A stretch of 12,697 nucleotides of DNA from an uncultured Rivibacter sp. (GTDB lineage: Bacteria; Pseudomonadota; Gammaproteobacteria; Burkholderiales; Burkholderiaceae), in contig CAMLLU010000110.1 in the NCBI GenBank assembly GCA_946480925.1, positions 1 to 12,697 of the forward strand, in the 5' to 3' direction. Of the stretch, positions 57-7,791 are shown piece after piece (position 1 is the stretch's first letter; the number at the start of each line of letters is the position of its first letter). The notes under the pieces were generated by a model. The model did not search any database and was not told the origin of the DNA. It saw only the letters and a program-made list of their open reading frames with translations. A program made the translations under genes and the position numbers.

Positions 57-536
57 ATGTCGATTCCCACCCGCCTGTCCAGCTACCTCGACCAGCGTGG
101 TGCGCGCTACGAGATCCAGGCGCATGAGCCCAGCCGCAGCAGCGCCGAGACCGCGCGTGCCGCGCACGTGTTGCCTCGGCAGATCGCCAAGTCGGTGCTG
201 CTCGAAGACGACGACGGCTGCGTGATGGCCGTGCTGCCGGCGGACAGGACGGTGCAGCTCGGCGAGCTGGCCGACATGCTGGGCCGCAAGGAGCTGCATC
301 TGGCCAGCGAGGAGCGCATTGCAAGCGTGCTGCCCGACTGCGAGCGCGGCGCCGTGCCGCCGGTGGGCATGGCCTGGGGCATCGAGACCGTGGTCGACGA
401 CGAGCTCGAGGCCAACGACGTGGTCTACCTCGAATGCGGCGACCACCAGCGCCTGCTGCGCATGTCGCGCGAAGAGTTCCGCGAGCTCATGAGCGACGCC
501 CAGCACGGGCACTTCGCGAAAGAGCGCTTCCACTGA
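57..536 (+). CDS. YbaK/ProX-type aminoacyl-tRNA deacylase domain protein
   Basis: A 159-residue protein of the YbaK/EbsC/ProX family, whose members hydrolyse mischarged aminoacyl-tRNAs (for example Ala- or Cys-tRNA(Pro)) in trans. The family signature is visible near residues 98-109 as DCERGAVPPVGM, corresponding to the conserved Gly-Ala-(Val/Ile)-Pro-Pro-(Phe/Val)-Gly loop of the substrate pocket. The stretch QIAKSVLLEDDDG (about 42-54) matches the family's conserved Lys strand, and MAVLPADRTVQL (about 57-68) follows it. Length is normal for a single-domain free-standing editor. The start is fixed by a strong AGGAGG at 46-51, five bases before the ATG. It is followed by about 200 bp without a gene and a stem-loop, so it is probably a separate transcription unit from the operon at 741. 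The family call is firm. The tRNA substrate cannot be read from the sequence. Confidence 0.88.
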   Translation: MSIPTRLSSYLDQRGARYEIQAHEPSRSSAETARAAHVLPRQIAKSVLLEDDDGCVMAVLPADRTVQLGELADMLGRKELHLASEERIASVLPDCERGAVPPVGMAWGIETVVDDELEANDVVYLECGDHQRLLRMSREEFRELMSDAQHGHFAKERFH

Positions 537-550
537 ATCCGCGAGGGCAT

Positions 551-573
551 GCAGGGCAGGTGAGCTGCCCTGC
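551..573 (+). terminator. Stem-loop after the YbaK-type gene, possible terminator
   Basis: GCAGGGCAG (551-559) pairs perfectly with CTGCCCTGC (565-573) across a five-base loop, starting 14 bases after the upstream stop codon. The position and strength suit a transcription terminator or an mRNA-stabilising 3' hairpin. No T-run follows, so it is not a textbook intrinsic terminator. Confidence 0.45.
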
Positions 574-728
574 GCGCTGCGTTGCAGATGCAACACGGCG
601 GCCTACACGTGAAATGCCGGCACCGAAACCGCCGGGCGGGTTCATTCGTCTGAGCTGACATCCAGGTCGAAGGTCGCATCACCGTTGCTGCCACGGCAGC
701 GGTGGGCGACGCGGCGACCGTTCGTCAC

Positions 729-733
729 GGAGG
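729..733 (+). promoter_or_regulatory. Ribosome binding site deciding the 741 start
   Basis: GGAGG seven bases upstream of ATG 741 favours this start over an in-frame GTG at 702 that would add 13 residues and has no comparable site. Confidence 0.7.
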
Positions 734-740
734 CTCGGAC

Positions 741-1304
741 ATGAACCACATCCCTGTCGCGGTGGGCATCGCGGACGTCTTCGAAAGATTGGCCTTGATG
801 GAGGCCGTGAGCTTCGAGGACTTCGACTTCGCCCCGTTCTTCAACGAGCCGGTCGATCCGGAGCCTTGGGAGCATTGGGAAAGCGGCGACGAGGAATTCC
901 GGGCCATCGCCGGTGAGAAGCGGCTGCTGCTCGTGTCGGGCGCCGCGGGCTTGCTGGCCACGCTCACTGAGCGCGACATCGCCTGCGTGCGTGCGCCGCA
1001 CGCCGATGGCGAACTTGCCTCGTTGGTGCAGGCGAGCCACGTGTTCAGCGAACTGGCCGTGCGCGGACTGCGCGTCTGCCTGCTCTACCGCACCGGCGCA
1101 TCGGGCCTGTTGCCGCTGCGGCTGAAGGTGGCCGGGGCCCACGGCATCGAGTGGCAGGCGCCGCGCTGCGAACCGCCCATGTTCAGTGGCGTCGTGTTCT
1201 CCGATCGCTGGCAGGCCGGCGTGCCGGCTCACGCGGCCGAGGTCGTCAGCCGCTTCATGAGCACGCTGCCGCCCTGGATGCAGGGTGCGGTCACTTGCCA
1301 CTGA
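741..1304 (+). CDS. Hypothetical protein, first gene of the GTPase/roadblock operon
   Basis: A 187-residue protein that I do not recognise. The N-terminal third (about residues 20-50) is strongly acidic and aromatic (FEDFDFAPFFNEP, then EPWEHWESGDEE). The middle alternates strands and helices: RLLLVSGAAGLLATLTE, a helix around SLVQASHVFSELAV, then RVCLLYRTG and LLPLRLKVAG. This could fit a small alpha/beta domain of the profilin/roadblock kind, but that is speculation. There is no signal peptide or membrane segment, so it is probably cytoplasmic. It ends 19 bases before the isopentenyltransferase gene on the same strand and is probably co-transcribed with it. A function in the GTPase/roadblock module is inferred only from position. 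Confidence 0.75.
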   Translation: MNHIPVAVGIADVFERLALMEAVSFEDFDFAPFFNEPVDPEPWEHWESGDEEFRAIAGEKRLLLVSGAAGLLATLTERDIACVRAPHADGELASLVQASHVFSELAVRGLRVCLLYRTGASGLLPLRLKVAGAHGIEWQAPRCEPPMFSGVVFSDRWQAGVPAHAAEVVSRFMSTLPPWMQGAVTCH

Positions 1305-1323
1305 ACGCGGAGCGAAGCCAGCC

Positions 1324-2091
1324 ATGACGATCTCGCTGCATCTCATCTGGGGCCCCACCACGACGGGCAAGACCAAGGTCGCCATCGAACTGTCGCGGCA
1401 GACCGGAGCGCCCGTCATCGCGCTCGACAGGGTCCAGTGCTGCCCTGAACTCGCCACGGGCAGCGGCCGCCCCGCCTTGCGCGAATTGCAGGGCACACCC
1501 AGGCTCTACATCGCGTCGCGAAGCCTGTCGGAGGGCATGCTCACCGCCGGGGAGGCCAACCGCCGCCTGAAGCTGCAGGTCCAGGAATGCGCGCGGACGA
1601 GCCCGCTCGTGATCCTCGAAGGCGGCTCGGTATCGCTGTTCAACGAGATGGCGGCCGACCCGTGGTGGGCGAGGGAATGCTCATGGCGCTTCACGCGCCT
1701 GCACATGCCCGAGCCGGTGGCTTTTCTGGCCCGTGCACGGCAGCGCGTGCGCGAGATGCTGCACCCGGAAGACGGCAGCCCGTCGCTGCTGCAGGAGCTG
1801 GCCATCGCGTGGCACGACATGACGTGCCGGGCCACGCTCGAAGACGTCGACGGATACCGCGCTGCCATTGAACTGGCACGCCGGCATCGGCTCTCGGTGG
1901 CAGAACTGCTCCATGTCCAGGAGCCGCTCGAAGTCGAACTCGTCGACGCCATCGCCGTGGAATACCTGCGACATGCCCGCTGGCAGGAAAGCGAGTTTCA
2001 CCGGATACCGCAGGCTTGGCGCGCCCGCCAGTCCGAGCGGCTGCAGGTGCCGGCAGGTGCACCGAGTGTCATATTTAATCAATCCGCGTGA
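1324..2091 (+). CDS. ipt: Adenylate isopentenyltransferase (cytokinin synthase, Ipt/Tzs type)
   Basis: A 255-residue enzyme predicted to transfer the prenyl group of DMAPP (or hydroxymethylbutenyl diphosphate) to N6 of AMP, the first step of cytokinin synthesis. The P-loop GPTTTGKT is at residues 10-17. It is followed by the Ipt/Tzs hallmark ALDRVQCCPELATGSGRP (from residue 33), then LEGGSVSL near the middle and LEDVDGYR at 172-179, which matches the conserved LEDIDGYR of Agrobacterium Tzs and holds a catalytic-site Asp. Agrobacterium Ipt and Tzs are about 240-243 residues, so the protein looks complete. The tRNA-modifying MiaA is longer, has a different substrate-binding motif (DSxQVY) and was rejected. 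The start is ATG 1324, with only a weak purine-rich site upstream. The gene sits between an unknown protein and a winged-helix/GTPase pair, an unusual place for a cytokinin gene. Whether AMP is the true acceptor here is untested. Confidence 0.88.
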   Translation: MTISLHLIWGPTTTGKTKVAIELSRQTGAPVIALDRVQCCPELATGSGRPALRELQGTPRLYIASRSLSEGMLTAGEANRRLKLQVQECARTSPLVILEGGSVSLFNEMAADPWWARECSWRFTRLHMPEPVAFLARARQRVREMLHPEDGSPSLLQELAIAWHDMTCRATLEDVDGYRAAIELARRHRLSVAELLHVQEPLEVELVDAIAVEYLRHARWQESEFHRIPQAWRARQSERLQVPAGAPSVIFNQSA

Positions 2092-2196
2092 GGAATTACC
2101 GCCCTGCAGGGGTTGGCGAGCAAACCCGTCATGTCGCCGCCATGTTTGGAAATGGGGCTGTGAATACGATTTCTTGCAATTACGACGAGGTAGTAA
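2092..2196 (+). other. Gap between ipt and the winged-helix gene
   Basis: This is the largest gap inside the operon (105 bases), and it is locally AT-richer than its surroundings (for example around 2068-2098 and 2145-2186). No ORF of interest is seen. It could contain an internal promoter, but no -35/-10 pair is convincing. Confidence 0.35.
2187..2190 (+). promoter_or_regulatory. Ribosome binding site supporting the GTG start at 2197
   Basis: GAGG lies six bases before the GTG at 2197. The next in-frame ATG at 2227 has a poorer upstream site. Confidence 0.5.
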
Positions 2197-2730
2197 GTGA
2201 CGTTCGAAAGCCTTGCCGCGAAGGCCATGAATGCAGTCGCATTGCGGCAGCACCGATTGCACGTGGAGGCGGCGGCCACCACCCCTGCAGAGCTCACCGA
2301 GAGCCGATTCCTGGCTGCTGCCACGTCGCGGCCGCCCGTGTTGCGCGCCGACCCACCCGGGGCGGCCGAGATGCCAGCCGATGACGCTGCCTTCGAGACG
2401 AAGGTGCTCATGCTGGCGAGCTGGCCGCAGATGAGGGCCGTGCCTGCAGAGCTGCTGGCCATCTACGCTCGCGTGTGCGCGCTGCTGGCCTACAGCCCTT
2501 CGGTCGGATTCCTGGTGCATAGAAGGCTGGGCCTGGAAAGCATGGAAGTGCTGCCTGTGCTGCGTGCGCTGCATGAGGCTGGCCACCTGCGCGTGACCAC
2601 CGGCGATGCGCATCATCAAAGTGACGTGCAGGGCGACGCGATCGCCGTCGAGGCTTCAATCGATGCGCAGGTGGAGCCGCCGCCCCGCAACACCTTGTGG
2701 ACCCGGCTGCTGGCCAAGCTGCTGCACTGA
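2197..2730 (+). CDS. Hypothetical protein with winged-helix-like C-terminal half
   Basis: A 177-residue protein using a GTG start (an in-frame ATG at 2227 would remove ten residues). Residues 1-65 are low-complexity Ala/Pro-rich and probably flexible. From about residue 66 a compact helical region follows: FETKVLMLASWPQM, then ELLAIYARVCALLAYSPSV, then LGLESMEVLPVLRALHEAGHLRV. The last segment looks like the recognition helix and wing of a winged helix, with the 'xVLxALxxAGxLR' pattern of small HTH domains. The tail is again acidic and Pro-rich. It ends two bases before the GTPase start, so the two are almost certainly translationally coupled. In actinobacterial conservons a DUF742 winged-helix protein (CvnC) precedes the GTPase CvnD, and I infer an analogous partner here. 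The fold call is by eye and not certain. Confidence 0.72.
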   Translation: MTFESLAAKAMNAVALRQHRLHVEAAATTPAELTESRFLAAATSRPPVLRADPPGAAEMPADDAAFETKVLMLASWPQMRAVPAELLAIYARVCALLAYSPSVGFLVHRRLGLESMEVLPVLRALHEAGHLRVTTGDAHHQSDVQGDAIAVEASIDAQVEPPPRNTLWTRLLAKLLH

Positions 2731-2732
2731 GC

Positions 2733-3311
2733 ATGGAAAGCCGCATCCTGTTCCTGGGCCCGGTGGGCGCAGGCAAGACCACCGCTGTTCGCACGATCAG
2801 CGACATCGAGGTGGTGGACACCGACGTTCGGGCCAGCGACGAGGTCGCGGCCTTGAAGACAAGCACCACCGTGGCCATGGACATGGGCGTCCTGCAGATC
2901 AGCGATGCCGACCGCATCGTCCTCTATGGCGCTCCGGGGCAGGACCGCTTCGACTTCATGTGGGAGATCCTGCTCGAGCAATGCGATGCGGTGCTGCTGG
3001 TGCTCGACCATTCCGCCGACGATCCTCTGGCCGACCTGCACCGCTATCACTCCGCGCTGATGCGCGCGGGCCAGCAGCGCCGGCCGCTGGCGATCGGGCT
3101 CACACATACCGACCGGGCCGTGCAGCGCCCGCTGAGCCTCTACGACGACTACCTTAAGACGCTGAAGGCGCGTTGCGGCTGCATGATGTGCACGCCGCCC
3201 GTCCAGACCATGGACGCTCGCGACCGTTCGGACGTGCGCGCGGCCCTCGTGACGCTGGCCGCGATGCTGGAAGTCGCACAGCGCTTCGCGCAGAAGCCAT
3301 GCCTGGCATGA
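2733..3311 (+). CDS. Small Ras-like GTPase of the MglA/Cvn (COG2229-like) type
   Basis: A 192-residue GTP-binding protein, about the usual length for prokaryotic MglA/CvnD-type GTPases. G1 P-loop: GPVGAGKT (9-16). G2/switch I: KTSTTVAMDMG (42-52), the pattern typical of the COG2229 group. G3/switch II: YGAPGQDRF (65-73), where the Ras DxxG is replaced by GAPGQ as in this group. G4: THTD (124-127) in place of NKxD. VLLVLDHSADDP (87-98) is the conserved strand after switch II. No lipidation signal or membrane segment is visible, so it is probably cytosolic. It presumably works as a nucleotide-dependent switch with the roadblock proteins encoded downstream, which in other systems act as GAPs or scaffolds. 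The start is ATG 2733, two bases after the preceding stop. GTPase class is firm and partner assignment is inferred. Confidence 0.9.
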   Translation: MESRILFLGPVGAGKTTAVRTISDIEVVDTDVRASDEVAALKTSTTVAMDMGVLQISDADRIVLYGAPGQDRFDFMWEILLEQCDAVLLVLDHSADDPLADLHRYHSALMRAGQQRRPLAIGLTHTDRAVQRPLSLYDDYLKTLKARCGCMMCTPPVQTMDARDRSDVRAALVTLAAMLEVAQRFAQKPCLA

Positions 3312-3313
3312 GC

Positions 3314-3329
3314 GCCGCCGTACGGCGGC
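3314..3329. repeat. Perfect 16-bp palindrome between GTPase and ABC-phosphatase genes
   Basis: GCCGCCGTACGGCGGC is an exact inverted repeat located just after the GTPase stop codon. As RNA it could form a 6-bp GC stem with a GTAC loop. It may modulate mRNA stability or be a protein-binding palindrome. No T-run follows, so termination is unlikely. Confidence 0.5.
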
Positions 3330-3354
3330 TCCGAAGGGGCGAGAGGGTGTACCG

Positions 3355-4734
<1,380 letters not shown>

Positions 4735-4774
4735 CCACAACCCATAACGACAGTCCCACGAAAGGAACTTTGAG

Positions 4775-5179
4775 ATGTCCAAGCTAGACACCGTGTTGCA
4801 GAAGGCCGTGACCAGCGTGCCCGACTGCGTGGCCACCGGATTCATCGACCTCGCCTCCGGCATGCTGCTCGGCGTGAAGACGGTGGATTCGCACCCGCAG
4901 GAAGTCATCGAGCTGCTGGCCGCCGCCACGGCCGAGCTGTTCCAGGGGCCCAACGTGGTCGCCATCGAGAAGCTCTTCCGCTCGTCGCGCGGCGTGCCCG
5001 AAGACGGCCGCCACTACTTCCAGGAAATCATCGTCAACAGCGACAACCTGATCCACGTGTTCCTGCGCGGCAAGCGGCAGCAGCAGGTGGCCACCTTCGT
5101 GTGCCGCAAGGGCGCCAACCTCGGCATGGTGCTCACCAAGGCCCGCATGGCGCTGCCGGAAATCGAAGCTTCGCTGTAA
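4775..5179 (+). CDS. Roadblock-like small protein
   Basis: A 134-residue cytoplasmic protein. The pattern is a helix (LDTVLQKAVTSV), a strand pair around ATGFIDLASGMLLGVKTV, a long helix (EVIELLAAATAELFQG), then strands FQEIIVNSDNLIHVFLRG and QVATFVCRKG, and a closing helix (LGMVLTKARMALPEI). This alpha-beta-beta-alpha-beta-beta-beta-alpha order fits the roadblock/LC7 (profilin-like) fold, although sequence similarity to the classic family is weak by eye. A clear AAAGGAA at 4760-4766 supports ATG 4775. It starts 40 bases after the ABC-phosphatase fusion and ends six bases before the next roadblock gene. Its likely role is as a partner, scaffold or GAP for the GTPase encoded at 2733. Confidence 0.78.
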   Translation: MSKLDTVLQKAVTSVPDCVATGFIDLASGMLLGVKTVDSHPQEVIELLAAATAELFQGPNVVAIEKLFRSSRGVPEDGRHYFQEIIVNSDNLIHVFLRGKRQQQVATFVCRKGANLGMVLTKARMALPEIEASL

Positions 5180-5185
5180 GACGCC

Positions 5186-5590
5186 GTGGCCACCACCTTT
5201 GCATTGACCCCGGTGCAGGCCAGCCGCGCCCGCTCGGTCCTGCGCATCCTGCGCAGCACGCATGCGGCCATCGAAGGCTGTGCCTTCGTGACGAGCGACG
5301 GCAGAGTGGTGGCATCGGCACTCGGACCGGACACGGACCCTGACCGCTTCGGCGCCATGTGCGCCGCGCTCATGGCGCTGGCCACGCGCGCCGCACGCGA
5401 AGCTGCGCGCGGCGATCTGCAGCAGCTCATCCTCGAAGGCAGCGCTGGCCCAATGCTGGTCACGAGTGCCGGCCCGCACGGCGTGCTGTCCGTGTCGGCA
5501 AGGCCCGAATGTCCGCTGGGGCGGCTGATCCTGGACGCCAAGATCACTGCTCAGTCCCTGGCTTCGGTCTTCGGCGCTGGCCCGGCATGA
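5186..5590 (+). CDS. Roadblock/LC7 domain protein (MglB/CvnB-like)
   Basis: A 134-residue protein and the clearest roadblock/LC7 member in the window. After an N-terminal helix it shows the family pattern: IEGCAFVTSDGRVVASAL (about 31-48), a helix with FGAMCAALMALATRAAREA, the strand DLQQLILEGSAGPMLVTSAG, then GVLSVSARPECPLGRLILDAK near the C-terminus. Roadblock proteins dimerise and bind small Ras-like GTPases. Examples are MglB, which activates MglA hydrolysis, and CvnB in Streptomyces. The start is GTG 5186, six bases after the previous stop. Its stop overlaps the next ATG as ATGA at 5587-5590, which implies translational coupling. Which of the roadblock proteins binds the GTPase cannot be told from sequence. 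Confidence 0.88.
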   Translation: MATTFALTPVQASRARSVLRILRSTHAAIEGCAFVTSDGRVVASALGPDTDPDRFGAMCAALMALATRAAREAARGDLQQLILEGSAGPMLVTSAGPHGVLSVSARPECPLGRLILDAKITAQSLASVFGAGPA

Positions 5591-6123
5591 CGGCTGCCGC
5601 GCAACGCTTCATCGACCTCACGCCGCAGGGTGTGCTGTCGTGCGCCGGTGCCTCGGCGGCCGATCTTCAGGGCCGGCTGCTGCAGGCATTGCTGCTGCGC
5701 GATCCGCGGCACGCCTGGCACAGCGATGAGCTTGCACGGCTGCTGCCTGATGCGCCACGACAGGCGGCACGCGCCCTGTTCGCGCTGCAACGCGAAGGCT
5801 GCATCGACGTGCAGCTCGAGCCACCGCCCGCCGAGCCGCACCACTGGGCGGCCATCGGGGCAGACCTGCAAGCGCTCGTGGACGAAGGCGCCACGCTGGC
5901 CGCGCTGCTCGACCATGACGGTTTCGTCATCGCGCAAGCCGGTGCCGCGGCACCGGCCGACGATGCGCTCGCCGTGCCGCCGCAAGCCGCACTGCAGTTG
6001 CACGTCGGCGAAGGGGCCTTGCGCGCCACCTACGGCCTTGCGCTACTGGGCCTGCAGGCGCAGGGCTGCCGCGCGGTGGTGCAGCTGGTGCGCCGCCTTG
6101 CCCGCATGCGAGCGGCCCACTGA
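5587..6123 (+). CDS. Helix-turn-helix plus roadblock-like protein
   Basis: A 178-residue protein starting at ATG 5587, inside the ATGA overlap with the upstream roadblock gene. Residues about 25-78 resemble a small winged helix: DLQGRLLQALLLRDP, WHSDELARLLPDAPRQAARALFALQREGCIDVQL. The pattern 'elarllp-parqaaRAlfaLqreGcI' matches HTH units that end in a wing. Residues about 80-175 look like a roadblock-type unit: IGADLQALVDEGATLAALLDHDGFVIAQAG, then strands LQLHVGEGALRATYGLALLG and a C-terminal basic helix. The layout (helix-turn-helix then a partner domain) parallels the winged-helix protein encoded at 2197. It may bridge GTPase/roadblock signalling and a DNA or protein target. Domain calls are by pattern only. 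Confidence 0.75.
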   Translation: MTAAAQRFIDLTPQGVLSCAGASAADLQGRLLQALLLRDPRHAWHSDELARLLPDAPRQAARALFALQREGCIDVQLEPPPAEPHHWAAIGADLQALVDEGATLAALLDHDGFVIAQAGAAAPADDALAVPPQAALQLHVGEGALRATYGLALLGLQAQGCRAVVQLVRRLARMRAAH

Positions 6124-6129
6124 AAAACC

Positions 6130-6567
6130 ATGAGCCTGCCGCCTCCCGATTCCCGCGAATTCCTGCCGCTCGACATGCGGCTGCAGGCAGAACTCCACCG
6201 CCTCCATGAAACGTGCGCAGAACTGCAGGGCGTCGCCGTGGCCACCGAAGAAGGCCTGGCCCTGTGCACGCTTGGCAGCCTGTGGCCCGAGGCGGCCTGC
6301 GCGACGGCCAGCTTCCTCATCAACCAGCTCAACACGCACCTGGGCATGCTGCGCGCCGGCCGCGCACGAGAGGTGCTGATCTGGACCGACAGCGGCCCTT
6401 GGTATATCGCGCGCATCGCCTCGCTGCCTTACGTGATCGCGCTACTCGGGGCCGGTGGTACGCCTGCCGCCGGGCTGCGCCATGCCGGCGCGCTGGCGGC
6501 GGCCCGGCTCGTCGGCGTGCTGGCCTCGCTGGCCGAACAACCCACCGAAACGGATTCCACACCATGA
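6130..6567 (+). CDS. Roadblock-like protein
   Basis: A 145-residue protein starting six bases after the previous stop, with only a weak ribosome site. An N-terminal helix (RLQAELHRLHETCAEL) leads to LQGVAVATEEGLALCTLG, the strand-turn-strand expected for a roadblock domain. A helix follows (EAACATASFLINQLNTHLGML), then strands REVLIWTDSGPWYIARI and YVIALLGAGGT, and a closing helix. This is probably the fourth roadblock-fold protein of the operon. Its stop overlaps the next start as ATGA (6564-6567). Function is inferred from fold and neighbours. Confidence 0.8.
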   Translation: MSLPPPDSREFLPLDMRLQAELHRLHETCAELQGVAVATEEGLALCTLGSLWPEAACATASFLINQLNTHLGMLRAGRAREVLIWTDSGPWYIARIASLPYVIALLGAGGTPAAGLRHAGALAAARLVGVLASLAEQPTETDSTP

Positions 6568-7223
6568 GCCAGGCGCCTGTCGTGTTCGGCGTGACCCACG
6601 TTCGCCTGCCCGTGCGCAGCATCACCCGCGCGAAGGCGCTCTATGGTGATCTGCTGCGCTTCGAGCAACGCGCGCAAGGCCAGGGCTGGCTCGAACTGGA
6701 TGCAGGCGGCACGGTGGGCCTGCTGCTCGTGGAGTCCGCTCTTGTGGAACACAACGCCTGCCTGCGGCTGCTCACGGCCGACGTGGAAGCGGCGCTGGAC
6801 ACTTTGCTGCTGCACGGCGGCTGCTCGCTGGTCGACGACGTGGCCCGTACGTCCGAGATGACGCTCGCCGCCACCGTGCGTGACGCCGACGGGCACCTGC
6901 TGACCGTGTGGCGCGCGCTCACCGAAGACGAGTACGACACGCCGCCGGATCTGCCCACCGTGCTCACCTGGAAGGAAGATGCGGAGGCCCTGCTCAAGCA
7001 ACTGCTGAAAGCAGTGCCGGCGCTGTTTCGCAGCCTTGCGCGGCGCAAGGTCGTGCGGGTGGTGGAAGAGCTGGCCGCCCACAGCCGCATCGTCACACGG
7101 GAAGAGGTGATCCGCGGCTTCATCCTCGCCAGCCCGAAGATCACGCGCGAGCGCAACCGCAAGCCGCTGATCGAGGCGGGCATCGACGTGAGCCGCTACC
7201 AGGCCGACTGGGACACGGACTGA
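6564..7223 (+). CDS. VOC (glyoxalase-fold) protein with C-terminal PCP_red-like domain
   Basis: A 219-residue protein starting at ATG 6564 in a four-base overlap with the upstream roadblock gene. Residues about 7-118 follow the vicinal-oxygen-chelate pattern: VTHVRLPVRSITRAKALYGD with His12 in the usual first metal-ligand place, LLRFEQRAQGQGWLELDAGG, and DADGHLLTVWRA, where the glutamate ligand expected near the last strand is not obvious, so metal catalysis is uncertain. Residues about 130-205 (LTWKEDAEALLKQL, VPALFRSLARRKVVRVVEEL, IVTREEVIRGFILASPKITR) resemble the PCP_red domain found at the C-terminus of protochlorophyllide reductase subunit B and in stand-alone proteins. No photosynthesis genes are present, so a reductase role is not implied. 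It is the last gene of the operon, 48 bases before a terminator hairpin. Confidence 0.78.
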   Translation: MSQAPVVFGVTHVRLPVRSITRAKALYGDLLRFEQRAQGQGWLELDAGGTVGLLLVESALVEHNACLRLLTADVEAALDTLLLHGGCSLVDDVARTSEMTLAATVRDADGHLLTVWRALTEDEYDTPPDLPTVLTWKEDAEALLKQLLKAVPALFRSLARRKVVRVVEELAAHSRIVTREEVIRGFILASPKITRERNRKPLIEAGIDVSRYQADWDTD

Positions 7224-7271
7224 ACAAGACGTGAATCAACCAAGTCGAGCGAGCAAGGCGTCGCTCAATGC

Positions 7272-7306
7272 ACGAAGCCCGGCTCCGCTCCTGGACCGGG
7301 CTTCGT
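7272..7306 (+). terminator. Hairpin terminator closing the ten-gene operon
   Basis: ACGAAGCCCGG (7272-7282) pairs perfectly with CCGGGCTTCGT (7296-7306) around a 13-base loop, and is followed by a short T-rich run TTCGTT. It sits 48 bases beyond the stop of the last plus-strand gene and 33 bases beyond the minus-strand flgN stop, so it may serve both converging units. The T-run favours plus-strand use. Confidence 0.75.
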
Positions 7307-7338
7307 TTCGTTCGGGGCTGTGGAGAGGGAAAAGCCCT

Positions 7339-7791
7339 TCAGGCCTGGATGGAGCCGCCGCCCCTGGGGCCGCTGGTGAGGCCTTGGGCCGAATAGACGC
7401 CGCCGCCGTGCGAGCGCGGCATCAGCACGTCGATGGCGCGGTCGAGCGCGGCGGTGGCACGGGCCAGCGATTCGCGCTGTGCGGCGAGCTGGCCGCTGGC
7501 CTGCGCCAGGCGGTGGCGCAGCGGGCGCGGAACGGCGCCCTGGCGGGCGGCCTGCGTGAAGCCGTCCATGGCGTGGGCCAGGGCCTTGTGCAGTTCGGAC
7601 GCGTGGTTTTCGATGCCCCGGCTGTCGCGCTCGCGCAGCGCATCGCCCAGGGCGGCAAGGTGCAGTTCCACCCGCGCGATCAGGCCTTCGAGGGCATGGC
7701 TCGCTGCCTTGGCGCTCGCGTCTTCCAGGGCTTTGGCTTCGGGGCTGCCGGCGGGAGGAATCATCATGGCGTTTCGGCGAGTGGAGAGCAT
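7339..7791 (-). CDS. flgN: FlgN-type flagellar export chaperone
   Basis: A small, Ala-rich, almost wholly helical protein (about 150 residues), next to flgM, as expected for FlgN, the cytoplasmic chaperone for the hook-filament junction proteins FlgK and FlgL. Long amphipathic helices run from LEDASAKAASHALEGLIARVELHLAALGDAL through LAHAMDGFTQAARQ to ATAALDRAIDVLMP, and the tail GGGVYSAQG resembles the tail of other FlgN proteins. The start is unsure. ATG 7791 is used here. ATG 7767 and 7764, or a TTG at 7809, are alternatives, and none has a good ribosome site. It probably shares transcripts with flgM, 66 bases upstream. FlgN sequences are poorly conserved, so the call leans on context. Confidence 0.68.
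   Translation of the reverse strand: MLSTRRNAMMIPPAGSPEAKALEDASAKAASHALEGLIARVELHLAALGDALRERDSRGIENHASELHKALAHAMDGFTQAARQGAVPRPLRHRLAQASGQLAAQRESLARATAALDRAIDVLMPRSHGGGVYSAQGLTSGPRGGGSIQA

Follow-up and report, generated by a model that had tools for sequence, protein, structure and literature searches.

Ten genes that follow each other on one strand with short gaps invite reading as a single operon, and the question raised by this locus is whether they belong together. The window, the whole 12,697-nucleotide stretch of DNA analyzed here, comes from an uncultured Rivibacter sp. An earlier note, made from its sequence alone, had described the genes as a candidate new operon in which a GTPase switch would make or respond to a prenylated nucleotide. 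Our results favour instead, with a probability of about 0.75, two unrelated modules lying side by side: a cytokinin cassette (g1-g2) and an extended switch of the Group 3 MglA type (g3-g10).

Layout of the ten-gene run

The ten open reading frames are all on the plus strand between 741 and 7223 (Table 1), and the description of them as co-directional and mostly close is correct. Successive gaps from g1 to g10 are 19, 105, 2, 43, 40, 6, -4, 6 and -4 bases, i.e. eight of nine are 43 bases or less. The sole wide gap, of 105 bases, lies between the isopentenyltransferase (IPT) gene and g3, and has a GC content of 0.52 vs. 0.65-0.72 in the ten genes. Both ATGA overlaps noted earlier are real (at 5587 and 6564), as is the closing hairpin (stem 7272-7282/7296-7306, MFE -32.8 kcal/mol, z -2.86, equalled by 3 of 200 shuffles); its T-tail is weak and a consensus terminator scanner did not list it. 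An RBS-like sequence was seen by eye ahead of g1. A sigma-70 promoter scan of 500-7400 gave no match and no RNA element reached Rfam gathering scores. Since both modules are on the same strand, they could share a transcript here.

Table 1. Genes and flanking features of the run, with the basis of each assignment.
Feature	Position	Strand	Basis or remark
g1: 187-aa protein, no Pfam/NCBIfam family	741..1304	+	Bradyrhizobium and P. savastanoi homologues directly upstream of IPT genes
g2: Tzs-type adenylate isopentenyltransferase (IPT, PF01745), cytokinin synthase	1324..2091	+	profile match and residues kept
intergenic gap, 105 bases, AT-richer	2092..2196	.	module boundary
g3: putative winged-helix-like protein	2197..2730	+	resembles C-terminal part of longer GTPase-preceding proteins
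g4: small MglA-type GTPase, beta/gamma (Group-3-like) clade	2733..3311	+	motifs, tree
g5: ABC-type ATPase fused to DSP/tyrosine phosphatase	3355..4734	+	Pfam, motifs
g6: roadblock-fold protein, missed by Pfam	4775..5179	+	structure model, constant g5 neighbour
g7: MglB-like Robl_LC7 protein, Asp-Gly pair, likely GAP	5186..5590	+	Pfam
g8: helical N-terminal part (putatively helix-turn-helix-like) and probable roadblock domain	5587..6123	+	relatives, weak model
g9: divergent roadblock protein	6130..6567	+	weak Robl_LC7 match
g10: VOC-like N-terminus (weak) and DUF2621/PCP_red-like C-terminus	6564..7223	+	Pfam
terminator-like hairpin	7272..7306	+	between g10 and convergent flgN

The cytokinin cassette and its boundary

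Genes g1 and g2 (741-2091) form a cytokinin cassette, in which a Tzs-type IPT stands behind a small protein of no known family. The naming of g2 as an AMP isopentenyltransferase held, as it matches PF01745 over its full length (290 bits, residues 4-235). It also matches the Tzs-type structure 2ze5 (231 bits) and is about 50% identical to Agrobacterium tzs, and its closest relatives are P0242 (69%) and P0243 (60%). The reference sites were Tzs D173 and H214; g2 D176 and H217 align with these, and among 79 aligned sequences the D is found in 51 and the H in 52. The enzyme would join DMAPP or HMBPP to AMP, giving a prenyl-AMP cytokinin precursor.

No Pfam or NCBIfam family was matched by g1. A homologue in Bradyrhizobium (36% identity) is located directly upstream of IPT, in the order g1 homologue, IPT, LOG, and another in P. 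savastanoi (27% identity) directly before ptz. In Pantoea agglomerans, pre-etz occupies the same slot upstream of etz and its resemblance to g1 is weak (hhalign probability 37%, best pairwise E 0.001); judged by sequence, pre-Etz is perhaps a true g1 homologue. PMC10425158 reports no homologues of pre-Etz. A g1 profile search of 360 Gammaproteobacteria genomes, run with no positive control, gave one weak match (E 0.002) with an internal stop, which was set aside. Like the window, pre-etz-etz and ptz have a small unknown gene just upstream of IPT, and these two and Agrobacterium tzs share the Tzs-type IPT with it. In contrast to bacterial cytokinin operons, the window IPT has no adjoining LOG and precedes a GTPase operon; the Bradyrhizobium cassette has a LOG gene, whereas none was found among the ten proteins (Pfam, NCBIfam). 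Possibly, g1 serves as an accessory gene and accompanies cytokinin synthases of this kind. The small gene ahead of ptz, and perhaps pre-Etz, thereby acquire a relative in g1, which opens the accessory gene of these bacterial operons to testing.

The boundary of this cassette was visible when related loci were compared. In Roseateles chitinivorans L001, g3-g10 keep their order, g8 and g9 being in one frame, but g1 and IPT are missing from the locus, and IPT was not found in the genome either. Neither IPT nor g1 was found beside any of 29 loci carrying the ABC-phosphatase g5 (0/29 for each). In a set of 10 genomes IPT gave one weak 22-bit match only, and it was found in 0 of 399 Burkholderiaceae genomes; judging by their numbering, the same genomes were used for the g5 search, so this zero covers the 21 genomes that bear g5. 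The top PF01745 match in 399 Burkholderiales scored 35.9 bits, vs. 290 for g2, and covered the profile start only, as a MiaA would. The boundary was further supported by a Methylibium rhizosphaerae-like locus (L103), where DNA similarity to the window begins at 2183, 14 bases before g3 and between IPT and g3, and where the flagellar flank is 88.7% identical. The L103 site retains only part of g3, g5 and g10, which shows that this relative can do without the switch and that g5 may be kept when the switch is lost.

Gene families, order and linkage, as well as the module boundary, are thus established. The counts and the weak-only profile matches rule out IPT as a conserved member of the switch. 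With g1-g2 unrelated to g3-g10, the idea of a single new operon for prenyl-nucleotide signalling fails, and because IPT and g1 are absent from the loci and the similarity breaks at 2183, the proposal that the GTPase switch produces or senses such a nucleotide is without comparative support. Conservation of the ten-gene set in order across genera, the check that the earlier note had proposed, failed: the full set of eight, g3-g10, was encountered in a single genus (Roseateles), and many genera have shorter sets. What stands of the joint interpretation is a GTPase/roadblock switch operon in a betaproteobacterium, its core kept in several genera; IPT membership and kinship with conservons do not. 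In sister lineages, IPT may be linked to the switch. Most plausibly, g1-g2 would be an acquired cassette beside the GTPase switch. A compositional signal of transfer was sought and none was clear, as the GC content (0.67-0.68) and codon index (0.54-0.63) of g1-g2 are inside the g3-g10 range (0.65-0.72 and 0.50-0.77). Repeats at the cassette borders were short and chance-like only, and neither border gave plasmid matches.

The GTPase and its partner proteins

Genes g3-g10 (2197-7223) are an extended Group-3-MglA-type operon and a module separate from g1-g2. The GTPase g4 matches PF03029 (39 bits) and gave no PDB sequence match at E 0.01. It has Thr in place of Arg in G2, GAPGQ in G3, THTD without Lys in G4 and DAR in G5. 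Group 3 MglA systems are known from beta/gamma-Proteobacteria, e.g. Neisseria and Xanthomonas (PMC4316618), and share with g3-g10 the G2 Thr for Arg, a G4 without Lys, the G5 DAR and MglB-like neighbours, of which Group 3 has one or two with an Asp-Gly pair; the GTPase is also preceded by a partner protein, which in the window (g3) matches the C-terminal part of longer ones. The Group 3 partner is described as having a receiver-like N-terminus and a winged-helix C-terminus. They differ in G3, which is GTPGQ in Group 3 and GAPGQ in g4 and in most nearer rows of our alignment, and in that g3 lacks the long N-terminal part carried by other Group 3 partners. The ABC-phosphatase, g6, g8 and g10 are extras, unmentioned in the available portions of PMC4316618 and PMC11112851. 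In a midpoint-rooted tree of 37 rows, which included no Group 3 sequence named in PMC4316618, g4 fell within a group of 32 beta/gamma rows (97/92), separate from the CvnD of Actinomycetota (three rows, 100/99) and from two Deinococcus sequences. Gonococcal GTPase pieces were left out of the tree (sequence in two frames); Nonomuraea L149 was not used. Taken together, motifs, tree, the MglB-like g7 and the literature definition identify g4, at the level of sequence, as a beta/gamma (Group-3-like) MglA-type GTPase.

The switch partner proteins are widespread and little-studied. No Pfam family was found for g3, which aligns only with the C-terminal part of longer partners preceding the GTPase in relatives; of two such long partners examined, L012 gave weak matches to HTH families (E 0.0017) and L010 gave none. 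A clear Robl_LC7 match was obtained for g7 (55 bits, E 8e-15), which has SDG, containing the Asp-Gly pair, and a weak one below cut-off for g9 (E 0.014). The only Pfam match of g8 is at chance level (E 0.55) and its structure model is weak (pLDDT 66, best PDB E 0.059); it probably contains a roadblock domain. For g10, DUF2621 was matched with 51 bits, and PCP_red and glyoxalase below their cut-offs.

The ABC-phosphatase and the competing readings

The call of a phosphatase-ABC fusion was borne out, as g5 matches both ABC_tran (54 bits) and a DSP-type phosphatase (57 bits), the latter with an intact HCRAGLGRTGT motif. Motifs read by eye showed Walker A, the Q-loop Gln, Asp-Glu and His to be invariant in 31 rows; the canonical LSGGQ is absent, with L-P-L-x-x-Q-R in the signature region of the window protein. 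ABC transporter ATPases have the LSGGQ signature and a membrane partner, whereas g5 lacks that signature and no permease family was matched among the ten (Pfam). The next gene, g6, has no Pfam family; its structure model (pLDDT 91.6) finds roadblock/MglB as the best PDB match (E 7e-8), and by this model g6 is a roadblock-fold protein.

Within 3.5 kb of g5, the 29 loci carried g6 in 28 cases (27 at 3 kb), the GTPase in 17, g7 in 15 and a ferredoxin-globin in 13. This count leaves out L030 (phosphatase half only), and L031-L079, which match one g5 half by residue ranges, were unused. The tightest pair is thus g5-g6, found also at loci without the GTPase and in other phyla; outside Burkholderiaceae, g5 loci occur in Planctomycetales, Myxococcales, Acidobacteriota and Bacteroidia. 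At one locus (L025), g6-g5-ferredoxin-globin comes straight after a pilus chemosensory operon with two response regulators, CheW, a receptor of PilJ type and a ChpA-like kinase. A GTPase-phosphatase fusion (P0147) was rejected as linkage evidence, as its reading looks frame-shifted. A defence system was also rejected: the PADLOC matches are of P-loop/ABC type, the best being mad3 with g5 (E 2e-13), with no other system part. No viral contigs bearing g5 were found, and in the open-access literature we noticed no paper linking an ABC-phosphatase with roadblock or MglA proteins.

We propose that g4 cycles between GTP and GDP, with g7 as a putative MglB-like GAP, g3 as the winged-helix partner and g8 and g9, in one frame in Roseateles, as a probable further roadblock pair. 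The output arm would be g5, with g6 as its dedicated roadblock partner, and the nucleotide state may thereby control the phosphatase through an action of g6 on g5. A likely target would be surface motility or other cell-surface behaviour, because of the pil-chp neighbourhood of L025 and of a result in Snodgrassella, where a mutated orphan mglB of a Group 3 system changes how cells spread in soft agar, an effect that the authors interpret as T4P motility (PMC11112851). Wuichet and Sogaard-Andersen 2014 (PMC4316618) suggested that Group 3 systems act on gene transcription, and not through a phosphatase. With the output unsettled between transcription and pilus motility in these sources, the ABC-ATPase-phosphatase, always linked to a roadblock protein of its own, offers a direct and testable candidate for it, and the ferredoxin-globin neighbour a candidate input.

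Against two modules stands the reading of one ten-gene operon, whose switch would regulate, or respond to, the prenylated nucleotide made by g2. The common strand, the short gaps and the RBS-like sequence agree with it, and the g2 cluster (8 contigs) and g4 cluster (9 contigs) have the same longest contig, of 113,841 bases, which makes one misassembly an improbable source of the pairing. We nevertheless consider it very unlikely, given the empty IPT and g1 counts, also in genomes carrying g5, and that g1-IPT exists as a unit of its own in Bradyrhizobium and P. savastanoi. Strand, spacing and overlaps alone can fuse two unrelated modules into one apparent operon. Even less credible, to the point of being nearly dismissed, is a conservon-like system transferred from Actinomycetota, a likeness suggested by the earlier note. 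Conservons, as described in the accessible part of PMC13343842, share with the window a roadblock protein and an MglA-family GTPase in one operon, and in tblastn Streptomyces ATP/GTP-binding proteins were about 30-34% identical to g4. They differ in phylum, in GTPase clade, with CvnD branching elsewhere in the tree, and in having the CvnA histidine kinase and a DUF742 protein, neither found among the ten (Pfam, NCBIfam); a Streptomyces region has, in a row, a sensor protein (annotated as nitrate/nitrite sensing), roadblock, DUF742 and GTPase. Conservon kinship was rejected on the tree and the missing kinase.

A third reading, which overlaps with the two-module explanation, we regard as tentative and rather doubtful. 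Here g5-g6 would be the real unit, ancient and cross-phylum, in which the roadblock protein gates an ABC-ATPase-tyrosine phosphatase and not a GTPase, often fed by the ferredoxin-globin as a redox/gas sensor, and the MglA-type GTPase would have been wired in later, in beta/gamma-Proteobacteria. If true, small-GTPase switches would be connected with the dephosphorylation of proteins and with pilus/surface behaviour. The neighbour counts and the spread over phyla speak for it, as do five Burkholderiaceae genomes (completeness not given) that have g5-g6 with no GTPase match at E 1e-6. However, stops were counted inside the g5 match in two of these five (G013 and G223), and where the GTPase is missing from the locus (16 genomes), 10 genomes have one elsewhere.

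Ten genes and two neighbourhoods

The earlier note had read the ten plus-strand genes (g1-g10) as one operon for a GTPase switch that makes or answers a prenylated nucleotide. The layout was confirmed: ten open reading frames in the stated order, ATGA overlaps at two junctions and a hairpin at the end were all recovered, and eight of nine gaps measure at most 43 bases. The sole wide gap (105 bases, GC 0.52 vs. 0.65-0.72 in the ten genes) lies between the isopentenyltransferase (IPT) gene g2 and g3. Downstream follows a convergent flagellar block, flgN, flgM, flgA and then flgBCDEF (named by eye; six served as queries).

A species-genome scan with a 31-row alignment of g5, the ABC-ATPase-phosphatase fusion, yielded at least 79 loci, a sample, of which 29 (L001-L029) match both g5 halves (split into two neighbouring frames in L024 and L028, and truncated by the contig end in L015). 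Counted on the same strand within 3.5 kb at E 1e-5, a distance inside which some contigs end, g6 was near g5 at 28 of 29 loci, a GTPase at 17, g7 at 15, g3-type proteins at 14 and ferredoxin-globin proteins at 13; g8 (2), g9 (2) and g10 (1) were rarer. Looser clustering gave g3-type proteins at 16 loci and ferredoxin-globin at 15. The neighbourhood search supported a conserved set in part: g3-g10 are complete and in the same order in Roseateles chitinivorans, with a divergent ORF upstream, but IPT and g1 were found at 0/29 g5 loci under the same rule. The observation was right and the joint function wrong; the IPT does not belong with the switch (g3-g10).

Coordinates of the features discussed
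Locus	Position	Source	Content
Window	2197-7223	Rivibacter sp.	g3-g10
L001	12249-13235	Roseateles chitinivorans	g8 and g9 as a single 328-residue frame
L011	5815-9454	Acinetobacter MAG	three tandem g3-type proteins, g6 between second and third
L015	2018-7241	gammaproteobacterial	g5, two g6-type, one g10-like, one roadblock protein
L025	718-12868		two response regulators, CheW, PilJ-type receptor, ChpA-like kinase, then directly g6-g5-ferredoxin-globin
L103	9629-11780	Methylibium rhizosphaerae-like	same site beside flgN; g3 start, g5, g10 remain
L113	4890-5527	gonococcal record	GTPase in two overlapping frames
L138	992-1495	Pantoea	gene directly upstream of IPT, weakly like g1
L144	1729-2343	P. 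savastanoi	g1 homologue upstream of ptz, 27% identical to g1
L145	1198-1704	Pantoea	gene directly upstream of IPT, weakly like g1

The cytokinin cassette g1-g2

The g2 product is a full-length PF01745 enzyme (Pfam, 290 bits) that scores 231 bits against the Tzs-type structure 2ze5 and is ~50% identical to plasmid-borne Agrobacterium tzs. Its positions corresponding to Tzs D173 and H214 are conserved. At E 1e-15 none of 399 Burkholderiaceae genomes matched g2, in a search run without a known positive, whose empty result carries no weight by itself. A PF01745 scan of 399 Burkholderiales matched in 307, and also in 9 of 14 control genomes, with a top score of 35.9 bits; the matches listed cover the profile start, as MiaA would. 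A protein database search, reaching only relatives with short exact words in common, returned 81 relatives of g2 vs. 4691 of g4 at E 1e-3. Three longest-contig values were common to the 81 IPT rows and the 120 listed GTPase rows (by eye): the window's own (113,841), 1,500 and 2,676, of which the last two each come from different sources (jgi vs. lgn) and are taken for chance.

When 72,556 plasmid records were searched with g1 (tblastn, E 0.01), the single match was on a Bradyrhizobium peanut-nodule plasmid, where an IPT (53% identity) directly follows the g1 homologue (36%) and is itself followed by a LOG gene. On P. savastanoi pPsv48A, this homologue as query matched a hypothetical gene that lies 112 bases ahead of ptz (E 2e-6); two hits in Rhizobium phaseoli (E 0.9) were left out. 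Pantoea carries the operon pre-etz-etz, and the consulted part of PMC10425158 gives the function of pre-Etz as unknown and reports that homologues were not found. Pre-Etz has the same slot upstream of the IPT as g1, its likeness to g1 being confined to two short stretches. Six further IPT stretches were opened, one from Pantoea, four from Rhizobium/Mesorhizobium and one from Actinacidiphila; in the latter five no g1-like gene is annotated beside the IPT in an incomplete gene table, and these records were also unmatched in the searches with g1 and the Bradyrhizobium homologue. So the pairing of g1 with IPT holds for only a part of these enzymes. The cassette adds a further case to the known cytokinin operons, some of which have the same accessory gene.

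The GTPase switch and its g5-g6 pair

The genes g3-g10 form a variant of a known switch type with a conserved putative output pair, g5-g6, which we did not find described. In g5, an ABC ATPase is fused to a DSP-type phosphatase; 31 aligned sequences, the window among them, show no variation in Walker A, Q-loop Gln, Asp-Glu, His or the phosphatase loop H-C-x5-R, and the LSGGQ signature is absent (motifs by eye). For g6 there was no Pfam match, and its model from 32 sequences (pLDDT 91.6) gave 1549 Foldseek matches in PDB at E <=10, 120 of them at E <=0.001 (best 7e-8). The best 50 of the 1549, judged partly by title, are roadblock-fold proteins (MglB, MglC, Streptomyces and Asgard roadblocks, LAMTOR/Ragulator subunits). 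Pfam identifies g7 clearly and g9 weakly as Robl_LC7 proteins, and g8 combines a helical N-terminal part with a domain whose top PDB matches are MglB, from a weak model (pLDDT 66, E 0.059).

The g4 product is an MglA-type GTPase (PF03029). In a midpoint-rooted tree that left out named Group 3 references it falls among beta/gamma rows (97/92), apart from CvnD (100/99), and the conservon likeness was not upheld. Its motifs fit the Group 3 MglA description in the consulted part of PMC4316618 except for G3, GAPGQ here instead of GTPGQ. As described there, the GTPase of a Group 3 system is accompanied by a receiver/winged-helix protein and by one or two MglB proteins, with transcription control as suggested output; the word "phosphatase" is absent from the paper's main text.

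Among the 399 sampled Burkholderiaceae genomes g5 was found in at least 21 at E 1e-40, a lower bound with four candidates scored per genome (stops were counted inside the match in G013, G223 and G393). Within ~1.5 kb on each side, g6 accompanied g5 in 20/21 and a GTPase in 5/21; of the other 16, ten carry a related GTPase elsewhere and six none (E 1e-6; genome completeness not given). In two large-genome members (L107, L110) that have no GTPase at the locus, g5-g6 lies near genes for an ArsC-family protein, a histidine kinase and a trypsin-like PDZ protease (neighbours by Pfam in L107, by clustering in L110).

The flagellar block of the nearest relative reached, L103, is 88.7% identical to the window, and the similarity runs piecewise via g10, g5 and the g3 start, ending at window position 2183. 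No IPT was found there. The site also lacks the GTPase and g6-g9, as well as the linker of g5, through either deletions or an assembly effect, and no GTPase match occurs elsewhere in the genome, which tells against an essential switch.

Proposed mechanism

Judging from families and linkage, g4 would act as timer and g7 would stimulate its hydrolysis, and g8-g9 may be a second roadblock pair, since in Roseateles they share one frame. The output would be g5-g6, an ATP-driven conformational switch joined to a phosphatase, with g6 as putative adaptor. Snodgrassella has a Group 3 system, and mutating an orphan mglB of it alters soft-agar spreading, which the authors interpret as a change in motility by type IV pili (PMC11112851, consulted in part). 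Because of this result and the pil-chp-like chemosensory operon at a single locus, L025, we propose, on a modest basis, surface motility as the target. The ferredoxin-globin of relatives (Fer2 and Bac_globin, with or without FAD/NAD domains, in three proteins scanned) may supply an input signal (redox, oxygen or NO). The operon in the window has no such gene, and g10 stands in its place.
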